A stretch of DNA of 64,000 nucleotides. Origin: an uncultured Selenomonadaceae bacterium (GTDB taxonomy: Bacteria > Bacillota > Negativicutes > Selenomonadales > Selenomonadaceae). The position numbers and the translations under genes were made by a program. Each line of letters starts with the position of its first letter. Positions within the stretch are counted from its first letter, which is position 1. Below, piece after piece: positions 32,035-35,126 of this stretch. The notes beneath the pieces are model-generated. The model was given only the letters and a program-made list of their open reading frames with translations. It was not told the DNA's origin and did no database searches. The stretch spans positions 1-64,000 of the forward strand of contig CACYXR010000002.1 in the NCBI GenBank assembly GCA_902778455.1. Direction: 5' to 3'.

Positions 32035-32080
32035 AAAATCCCTTCCGCTTTGGAATTTCCAAGACGGGAGGGATTTTCTA
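32035..32080. terminator. Bidirectional terminator
   Basis: 13-bp stem AAAATCCCTTCCG / CGGGAGGGATTTT (32035-32047 with 32065-32077) with one G-T pair and T-runs on both sides, between convergent genes. It overlaps the first bases of the minus-strand gene's 3' end. Confidence 0.85.
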
Positions 32081-32887
32081 TGCACCGGTTTCTATTCTTT
32101 CCATTTCCGGCGGCGCGTCCTTTGTGAATTCGGTCATATATTTCCAATAGCGCTTCGGGAGCAGTGTCATGCGGCATTTTTCGTTGTGACGCGGGCAGAT
32201 TTCCACAGCGTTGTAAAAGGTGCGCCACAGAGAACGGAATTTTCGTTCTTCCTCGTCGGGCGGCGCGGCGCGAAAATCGTCCATCGGAATCACGGCGGAC
32301 TCGTAGGGGCGGTAGACGAGAGCGGCATGATGCTTCTCATCGTAAATCAGGATGTGCTCCTCGGGAAAGCGCTTAGCGAAGTGAGGTGCGAGAAACGGCA
32401 GCACGAAATTCTTCGGCCCGATGGTCGTGACGAGGACGCCCTTTTGATCGGAGAAGCGAATGAAGCCTTTCAAAAGGTGTGCCTCATGGAGTAAATGTTT
32501 CACCGCTTCAGTGAGCCGCCAGACCTCTTCGTTTCCAGCGAAAGAAAGAAAGCGTGCGCCGTAGCGGTATCCCTGCCGCAAAAAACGCAGCATGACAAGC
32601 TCCTTTTCGGGGAGGCATGTCAAAAATGCGTGACGGATGAGTTCATCGGCGGCACGGGAAATGCGCGTGGGAATGGAGCGGGCAACGCGGGCGGCGCGTT
32701 CTTCGTCCGTCGGGATTTCCTTGATGCCGAAAAGGGAAAGCTCCGGTGCGTCCGGCCCGACGATGGCGGCGGGAAGCTCGTGGGCGGCGTAGCTCTCGAA
32801 GACACAGCAGAGAAAGCCCTCGAAGCTGCCGTCATATCGGTAGGTGAGGGCAGAATCCATATGGTTTATATCGGGGCGGCGAGACAT
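32078..32887 (-). CDS. TIGR03915-type probable DNA metabolism protein (DUF4130)
   Basis: 269 residues matching the family that accompanies the TIGR03916 radical SAM protein: the start TYRYDGSFEGFLCCVFESY and the C-terminal RFLPKRYWKYMTEF-like block (here MTLLPKRYWKYMTEF) are diagnostic. In other genomes this domain is fused to a uracil-DNA-glycosylase-like domain (TIGR03914); here it is alone. The gene overlaps its upstream partner by 22 bp. An internal ATG at 32860 is an alternative start nearer the domain. Function in DNA repair or base modification is inferred from the family, not shown. Confidence 0.85.
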   Translation of the reverse strand: MSRRPDINHMDSALTYRYDGSFEGFLCCVFESYAAHELPAAIVGPDAPELSLFGIKEIPTDEERAARVARSIPTRISRAADELIRHAFLTCLPEKELVMLRFLRQGYRYGARFLSFAGNEEVWRLTEAVKHLLHEAHLLKGFIRFSDQKGVLVTTIGPKNFVLPFLAPHFAKRFPEEHILIYDEKHHAALVYRPYESAVIPMDDFRAAPPDEEERKFRSLWRTFYNAVEICPRHNEKCRMTLLPKRYWKYMTEFTKDAPPEMERIETGA

Positions 32888-34191
32888 GAAAGCTCCTTCC
32901 TTTCTGCGGGAGAGAGCGCCGGCGTTTCCTCTCCGAACAGGGAAAGCTGGCGCACGGAGGCGGTTTCCGTGCGAAACAGCGCGCGTTCCCGCGGCGACAT
33001 CAGGTCGAGCAGCAGTTCCTCCTTGGCGGCGGGCGCGTCATAATAGCGTTTCCCGTTCGCGACGAGGAAATGACGGGCGCGTTTCGTAACGATGCCGATT
33101 TTTGCGAGAGCGTCCCATGTCAGTGCGGCGGCGCGGCGGGCGCGGGTGATGCGCCACGCGCTCTTGACGCCGACGCCGGGCACGCGGAGTAAAAGCTCAT
33201 AAGGCGCGCGGTTCACTTCCAGCGGGAACATATCCTTGTGGCGAAGCGCCCAATGGCATTTCGGGTCGAGATACGGGTGCAGCCGTCCTTCCGTCCCGTC
33301 GAAAAGCTCTTCGGAGGAAAAGCCGTAGAACCGCAACAGCCAGTCGGCCTGATAAAGACGGTGTTCACGCCAGAGCGGCGGCGGCGTTTCAACGGGCGGG
33401 AGGGCCGCCGCCTCGTTCACGGGGACGTAGGCGGAGTAAAAGACGCGTTTCAGCCGATAGCGCGTATAAAGAGCGGAAGTAAGCATCAGGATATGGCGGT
33501 CGCTTTCGCCGGAAGCGCCGACGATCATTTGCGTGCTCTGCCCGGCGGGGGCGAAGCGCGGCGCATGACGGAAAAGCACGAGGTCGCGGCGGTTCTCATC
33601 GATGCCGCCTTGGATCAGTCCCATCGGGCCAAGGATTGCGGCCTTCGTTTTGTCCGGTGCGAGGCGCTGAAGACTTTGTCCCGACGGCAGTTCGATATTC
33701 ACGCTCAGGCGATCGGCCAGGAGGCCGAGACGGCGAACGAGAGCGGCGTCCGCGCCGGGAATCGCTTTCGCGTGGATATATCCGGAAAAGTGGTACTCCT
33801 CCCGCAGAATGCGGAGCGTCTCGATCATCGTCTCCGTAGCGGCGTCCGGCGTGCCAACCACGCCCGAGCTCAAAAACAGCCCCTCGATATAGTTCCGTCG
33901 ATAAAAGGCGATGACGAGTTCTGCAAGCTCGCGCGGGGCAAAGGAAGCACGGCGCGTATCATTCGATCGGCGGTTCACGCAGTAGGCGCAGTCGTAGACG
34001 CAGGCGTTCGACTGCAAGACTTTCAGCAGCGAAATGCACCGTCCGTCGCCAGCGAAAGAATGGCAAATGCCGCAGGCCTCCGCGCTTCCGATGCCGCCGC
34101 GCTTCGCGGTTTTTTGCGCGCCGCTGGACGTGCAGGCCGCGTCGTATTTCGCCGCATCGCTCAAGATGCGAAGTTTTTCCATCGTGTCCAT
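32866..34191 (-). CDS. TIGR03916-type putative DNA modification/repair radical SAM protein
   Basis: 441 residues. The radical SAM motif CVYDCAYC is preceded by conserved EACGICHSFAGDGRCISLLKVL. A helix-hairpin-helix (RVPGVGVKSAWRITRARR) near residue 340 suggests DNA binding. The start MEKLRILSDAAKYDAACTSSG is characteristic. It is the first gene of a two-gene operon with the TIGR03915 partner, behind a promoter carrying a LexA-type box. The enzymatic reaction is unknown; repair by radical chemistry is a reasonable inference. Confidence 0.88.
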   Translation of the reverse strand: MDTMEKLRILSDAAKYDAACTSSGAQKTAKRGGIGSAEACGICHSFAGDGRCISLLKVLQSNACVYDCAYCVNRRSNDTRRASFAPRELAELVIAFYRRNYIEGLFLSSGVVGTPDAATETMIETLRILREEYHFSGYIHAKAIPGADAALVRRLGLLADRLSVNIELPSGQSLQRLAPDKTKAAILGPMGLIQGGIDENRRDLVLFRHAPRFAPAGQSTQMIVGASGESDRHILMLTSALYTRYRLKRVFYSAYVPVNEAAALPPVETPPPLWREHRLYQADWLLRFYGFSSEELFDGTEGRLHPYLDPKCHWALRHKDMFPLEVNRAPYELLLRVPGVGVKSAWRITRARRAAALTWDALAKIGIVTKRARHFLVANGKRYYDAPAAKEELLLDLMSPRERALFRTETASVRQLSLFGEETPALSPAERKELSCLAAPI

Positions 34192-34227
34192 TTGATTTCC
34201 GTCCTTCCGAAAAAACGTTCCTTTACT

Positions 34228-34256
34228 ATTATATAAAGAACGAGTGTTCTTGTAAA
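34228..34256 (-). promoter_or_regulatory. Promoter with LexA-type SOS box in its spacer
   Basis: Minus strand TTTACA (34256-34251), 17-bp spacer, TATAAT (34233-34228). The spacer contains AAGAAC-N4-GTTCTT (34236-34251), whose core GAACGAGTGTTC (34238-34249) matches the Gram-positive LexA/DinR consensus GAAC-N4-GTTC. A repressor bound there would cover both promoter elements. The plus-strand zinc-ribbon gene has its own TTGTGA/TAAAAT promoter at 34267-34295. Confidence 0.78.
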
Positions 34257-34346
34257 GGGCTTTTGGTTGTGAGAACGGGTGCTTTCGTGTAAAATGATGG
34301 GCAAGAGAAAGTGCGCTTTCGTCTCATCAAGTCAGGAGGGAAAGGT

Positions 34347-35126
34347 ATGGGATTATTTGACAGCCTGTTTGGAAAAAAGAAAGAAGACGCCGTGAGCAAG
34401 AAAAAATGCCCCGTATGCGGCATGGAGTTTTCCGACAAAGGCATGGACGTATCCGACGGAACGATCTGCCTTTCCTGCTGGGAAATCGTGATGGACGACT
34501 TCGAGAGCGGGTTATTGGATGAACAGGATGATTTTTTTATCGCTCCGATCAAGGCGGCGGTGAAAACCAAAAAAGCGGAGCGGGAGGCCATCAACCGCGC
34601 GAAAGCGCAAAAGCCGGAAAGTTGTCCTCTCTGCGGCGGCAAGATGCCGAAAATCATGACCATGGAAGTCAAAGACGGATATATCTGCGACGTCTGCTTC
34701 GAAAAATTCAGCGGTCTGGAAGACCGGAAAGAAACGGAAAAAGCGCTTGAGGATATGACGATAAAGGAACTGGCGGCGCTGTTCGCTCTGGCAGAGAAAA
34801 AGCAGGAGGCCAAGGCGCTTCGGATGGAGCAGGACCGCTGCCCTGTCTGCGGGGGCGACGTGTCCGAAAAATCGACCGGCTCCCTCTGGGGCGACATAAA
34901 AAAATCGGTCAAGGATGGATTCCCTGCCTTCATTGTACTGAAGGATAATTGGAAAATCTGCGGCGAATGCGCCGATAAAGTGCGCGCCGTGTATCCTGTT
35001 GCGCATTTGAGGAAACCGGACGGCGACGGCGGATACGAAGACGTTTATGTGGACCCGCTCAACGATGTTACCCTGGAAGCGTTTAAAAAAGCATTTGCGG
35101 ATGTGGCAGCAAAAAGTCTGGAATAG
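34347..35126 (+). CDS. Triple zinc-ribbon protein (DUF4428-like), unknown function
   Basis: 259 residues with three CxxC pairs: CPVC/CLSC (near 20 and 45), CPLC/CDVC (near 95 and 115) and CPVC/CGEC (near 168 and 205). Each resembles the DUF4428 zinc ribbon seen in small secreted or cytoplasmic Firmicute proteins. The Cys set would hold three zinc ions. No catalytic motif is seen. ATG 34347 behind AGGAGGG is better than the upstream frame start. It is transcribed away from the SOS-box operon. Confidence 0.75.
   Translation: MGLFDSLFGKKKEDAVSKKKCPVCGMEFSDKGMDVSDGTICLSCWEIVMDDFESGLLDEQDDFFIAPIKAAVKTKKAEREAINRAKAQKPESCPLCGGKMPKIMTMEVKDGYICDVCFEKFSGLEDRKETEKALEDMTIKELAALFALAEKKQEAKALRMEQDRCPVCGGDVSEKSTGSLWGDIKKSVKDGFPAFIVLKDNWKICGECADKVRAVYPVAHLRKPDGDGGYEDVYVDPLNDVTLEAFKKAFADVAAKSLE

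Follow-up and report, generated by a model that had tools for sequence, protein, structure and literature searches.

LexA-type boxes at the promoter of a TIGR03916-TIGR03915 radical SAM operon in Selenomonadaceae

Genes, promoter and operators of the locus

The window, i.e. the whole stretch of 64,000 nucleotides that was analyzed from the genome of an uncultured Selenomonadaceae bacterium, carries a two-gene operon with a putative role in DNA repair on its minus strand. It encodes a radical SAM protein and a partner protein, and shares its upstream intergenic region with a divergently orientated gene. The features of the locus were:

32078..32887, minus strand: TIGR03915/DUF4130 partner, 269 aa, with a 22-nt overlap with the radical SAM gene
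32866..34191, minus strand: radical SAM protein TIGR03916 (rSAM_link_UDG), 441 aa, with CX3CX2C at C64/C68/C71 and a C-terminal helix-hairpin-helix
34202..34208, minus strand: probable ribosome-binding site GGAAGGA, by its sequence and its position 10 nt before the ATG
34209..34220, minus strand: putative operator O2, GAAC-GTTT-TTTC, with one mismatch (plus-strand listing GAAAAAACGTTC), at the predicted transcription start
34228..34233, minus strand: -10 element TATAAT, read from the sequence and kept in relatives
34250-34234, minus strand: 17-nt spacer, read from the sequence
34236..34251, minus strand: operator O1, the LexA-type box AAGAAC-ACTC-GTTCTT (core 34238-34249), based on sequence, conservation and enrichment over controls
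34251..34256, minus strand: -35 element TTTACA, read from the sequence; TTTACA or TTTACT also stands before the box in further genera of the family and of the class
34347..35126, plus strand: zinc-ribbon protein (DUF4428) of the divergent gene, which O1 probably does not control

The first-pass annotation had assigned the two proteins to TIGR03916 and TIGR03915, which was confirmed with scores of 613.3 bits (cut-off 343.5) and 226.9 bits (cut-off 112.25), respectively. In the radical SAM protein C64, C68 and C71 were invariant, as were further cysteines at positions 20, 43 and 52. The helix-hairpin-helix proposed near its C-terminus was recovered as a profile match to a ComEA-related structure (residues 321-358) with the motif LLRVPGVG. 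A Foldseek search with the TIGR03916 model gave HydE, biotin synthase and lipoyl synthase as best matches, all limited to the radical SAM barrel. The SplB (spore photoproduct lyase) family was considered and rejected, as NCBIfam gives TIGR03916 only and no SplB structure was present among the 50 Foldseek matches listed.

A TIGR03915-like frame was found in 124 of 128 orthologous loci. The structure model of the partner protein was confident (pLDDT 89.6), its fold search gave no PDB match below E 0.001, and a search by sequence found no solved relative. A RecJ/DHH-type fold reached TM-scores near 0.3 and was not used. In the Selenomonadales MAG RUG113 the TIGR03915 frame (L137:4047-4853, plus strand) is interrupted by an in-frame stop, which may reflect either an error of assembly or a partner gene that is broken.

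Direct reading of the sequence confirmed a minus-strand promoter TTTACA-17-TATAAT at 34256-34228, with the coordinates given in the first-pass annotation, and its spacer encloses GAAC-ACTC-GTTC. The box had been placed within the 17-bp spacer. This holds for the 12-nt core GAACACTCGTTC (34249-34238), which lies there entirely, and requires a trivial correction for the 16-bp palindrome AAGAACACTCGTTCTT (34251-34236), which has one base in common with the -35 element. The palindrome AAGAAC-N4-GTTCTT consists of the core GAAC-N4-GTTC and two matching bases on each side. As had been claimed, the core agrees with the published Gram-positive LexA consensus (PMC4234289). An operator of this type overlapping the promoter, a feature of the Gram-positive LexA (SOS) regulon, is present at this TIGR03916 operon.

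A second site, O2 (34220-34209), had been overlooked before. It starts at the predicted +1, 29 bp downstream of O1, and the same spacing was found in seven of eight promoters read from the genus. In the eighth, and in the more distant locus L032, a diverged O2 copy was located at 28 bp. An O2-like site arose by chance in 0.9% of shuffles of the 46-nt leader, and pairs of boxes 26-30 bp apart were seen repeatedly throughout the orthologue upstream regions. The position of O1 in the spacer together with that of O2 at +1 suggests tight repression.

Conservation of the box and chance expectation

Allowing one mismatch, GAACN4GTTC occurred at 28 sites in the window, compared to 27.9 expected from shuffles. 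The bare short motif therefore proves nothing and was left out as evidence. The exact 16-mer was present at only two places in the 2.6-Mb genome, both of them promoters, where a simple expectation is about 0.15; the second copy is located upstream of a YneA-like LysM gene. Exact boxes at C2:49995, C8:68688 and C10:52248 were set aside as apparently located inside open reading frames (C2:49995 judged by eye), and so were one-mismatch 16-mers at C4, C7 and C14.

It is conservation that gives evidence that the O1 box is real. The first-pass annotation had proposed a search for the same box upstream of orthologous operons across Negativicutes and Clostridia, and the outcome was strongly positive. 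In the family of the window, upstream sequence could be read at 17 TIGR03916 loci; 12 of them carried the exact box and one more a box with one mismatch. Twelve of these 13 boxes were located between TTTACA/TTTACT and a TATAAT-like element, and the thirteenth (L032) is followed by a weaker -10. Of 89 loci from the rest of the class, 75 carried the box with no more than one mismatch (25 of them exact), and of 80 named loci, mostly of Clostridia with some Negativicutes and one Paenibacillus, 65 did so (37 exact); the three sets overlap slightly. In total, about three quarters of the orthologues sampled have conserved the operator.

In relatives the arms of the box were fixed while the central four nucleotides varied freely (ACTC, GCTC, GCTT, ATTT, ACGC, GTGC, TTAT, TAGT), as expected of an operator. 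The precise TTTAC-box-TATAAT layout was present in at least 28 of 186 regions, and many of the remaining regions have the box immediately downstream of the -10. Placement in the spacer is thus common in Negativicutes and not universal.

As a control, the 95 other half-sites with two G/C and two A/T were counted in 177 dereplicated upstream regions of TIGR03916 orthologues (Negativicutes, Clostridia and one Paenibacillus). GAAC-N4-GTTC was found exactly in 65 of these regions and with up to one mismatch in 138, whereas the controls gave means of 0.4 and 6.7 and maxima of 3 and 25, respectively. Within 200 nt upstream of the gene, the density of exact boxes (44 in 16 kb) was furthermore approximately 180-fold that of the remainder of the same loci (7 in 462 kb).

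LexA and the extent of the regulon

The genome encodes both a canonical LexA and RecA. There is one LexA, at C9:117099-117686, with the domains LexA_DNA_bind and S24 peptidase, and its closest solved relatives are LexA repressors. Just after the -10 of recA we found GAAA-AAAT-GTTC with one mismatch, and at lexA a degenerate AATC-ATAC-GTTC with two; each of these sites is found again in most members of the genus. Upstream of uvrB, considered as an SOS marker, no convincing box was present. The YneA-like gene (C3:65592-65915 of the same genome) with its exact box encodes a 108-aa LysM protein, which is named here by resemblance in size and domain and without a family match. Most of its relatives in the genus (L115-L124) have kept the box, and frequently there are several copies in a row, spaced by 15 bp.

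The difference between the strong sites of the radical SAM operon and the YneA-like gene and the weak sites of recA and lexA would be consistent with late and early SOS genes, respectively. Because the lexA box is weak and uvrB shows no convincing one, the regulon could be established only in part for genes other than the YneA-like gene and the operon.

GAAC-N4-GTTC boxes were additionally found 3 nt from parS-like TGTTTCACGTGAAACA sites at C9:145486-145516 (L007, L247) and C27:1553-1602 (L009, L249) of the same genome. One is located between two parS-like sites, the other next to parA. This arrangement is shared by the same-genus genomes G131 and G137, and all other genomes of the family lack it.

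A natural test of LexA dependence is offered by genus g9 of the same family. Its four genomes with the operon (99-100% complete) encode only LexA-like proteins with an HTH_3 DNA-binding domain, and their radical SAM promoters consist of TTTAC and a TATAAT or TATACT element without the box. Across the class the box was present in 62 of 70 genomes with canonical LexA versus none of the four with only the HTH_3-S24 type, although these four represent one genus and one evolutionary event and not independent replication, and the Fisher p-value of the contrast accordingly exaggerates the independence of the data. The g9 operon proteins are divergent (53% identity), and the operon may be separate in origin there. 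The absence of the box in g9 is therefore suggestive as a pointer to LexA dependence. A motif common to the promoter of the HTH_3-S24 regulator and the boxless g9 radical SAM promoters was sought and none was found. In genomes G044-G047 (L239-L242), where a 204-205 aa regulator with HTH_3 and S24 domains has apparently replaced the canonical LexA, the promoter of this regulator contains a conserved stretch TTTTTCCGAACNNATTAAGTATACT which could be its operator.

Five of the eight genomes with canonical LexA and without the box belong to genus g47 of another family (f2 of the class). The TIGR03916 matches of this genus (G233, G236-G239, G245) were mostly longer than those of other genera, with an insertion that reaches about 60 residues at most; several members have no box despite a canonical LexA.

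Probable assignment to the SOS response and relation to known systems

The SOS control by LexA proposed in the first-pass annotation gains support from the conservation among orthologues, the canonical LexA and the boxes at the YneA-like gene and recA. Judged from the sequence data, it is highly likely that TIGR03916-TIGR03915 forms a LexA-repressed SOS operon, which is very probably switched on by DNA damage. Canonical LexA dimers would bind O1 between -35 and -10, probably also O2 at the transcription start, and once bound would exclude RNA polymerase. Upon DNA damage RecA filaments would trigger self-cleavage of LexA and the operators would be vacated. The radical SAM enzyme and its partner would then be made, co-translated from their overlapping genes.

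A regulator other than LexA, be it an S24 repressor, a phage repressor or an unrelated factor, might read GAAC-N4-GTTC at this promoter. Other repressors can read palindromes of this type, further S24-peptidase regulators are present in the class, and the lexA promoter itself has only its degenerate site. We regard this reading as quite improbable in view of the agreement with the published consensus, the boxes at recA and the YneA-like gene, the single LexA match in the genome and the absence of the box where canonical LexA has been replaced. A chance palindrome in an AT-rich promoter, as the shuffle-like frequency of the core motif in the window could suggest, has been refuted by the conserved arms with their variable centre, the fixed promoter position across genera and 65 exact matches in 177 regions against a control maximum of 3; its probability is practically negligible.

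It would also be conceivable that O1 acts mainly on the divergent DUF4428 gene, or on both genes together, as it lies in the shared intergenic region and about 15 nt upstream of a promoter-like TTGTGA-17-TAAAAT (34267-34295) belonging to that gene. However, this promoter is located downstream of O1, O1 itself sits between the -35 and -10 elements of the radical SAM promoter, and the box accompanies the radical SAM gene in genera with widely different upstream sequences, which makes such control very unlikely.

LexA repression of the radical SAM operon, read from the conservation of its operator, would mean that the pair regularly takes part in the SOS response of Negativicutes and Clostridia. 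It supports a role of the pair in DNA damage without specifying the reaction. SOS control would tell an experimenter when the two proteins are needed and how they can be induced. More tentatively, and with some doubt on our side, the pair might belong to the ancestral core of the SOS response in Bacillota. Its double operator would then serve to hold back a DNA-directed radical enzyme that does harm when uncontrolled, and the pair would have left SOS control when canonical LexA was exchanged for a Cro/CI-type regulator.

The LexA link of the operon is already known elsewhere and is extended here to Negativicutes, for which a literature search on LexA control found nothing relevant. The present analysis adds the breadth of this link, the spacer geometry, O2 as a second operator and the lack of a box in genus g9. 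We take COG4277 to correspond to the TIGR03916 family. In Clostridium acetobutylicum LexA control of the CAC3343-CAC3344 operon, presumably the orthologous one, was proposed in 2013 from prediction and expression clustering only (PMC3828012). The operon of the window differs from it in belonging to Negativicutes, in its conserved spacer geometry and in its second operator. For a COG1573-COG4277 operon, PMC8565304 and works cited there report LexA/SOS control in Bacteroidetes, Verrucomicrobia and Alphaproteobacteria. The Bacteroidetes operators are GGA-N5-TCC and CTAA-N5-TTAG, unlike GAAC-N4-GTTC, and the partner is a uracil-DNA glycosylase, whereas the operon of the window has a DUF4130 partner and no uracil-DNA glycosylase. 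DUF4130 was linked in 2013 to SplB-like radical SAM proteins and uracil-DNA glycosylases (PMC3765255). The splB radical SAM genes are likewise under SOS control in several species, but TIGR03916 is a separate family.

The YneA-like gene, finally, named after the YneA-type SOS cell-division inhibitor, shares the exact 16-bp box with the operon of the window and differs from it in its several tandem boxes at 15-bp spacing, compared to two boxes 29 bp apart. Exactly 15-bp spacing of two boxes was also observed at radical SAM promoters themselves, namely in families f25 and f27 of the class (e.g. L209, L230, L256, L307). The arrangement there is GAAC-N4-GTTT, three bases and AAAC-N4-GTTC, unlike the 29 bp found here.
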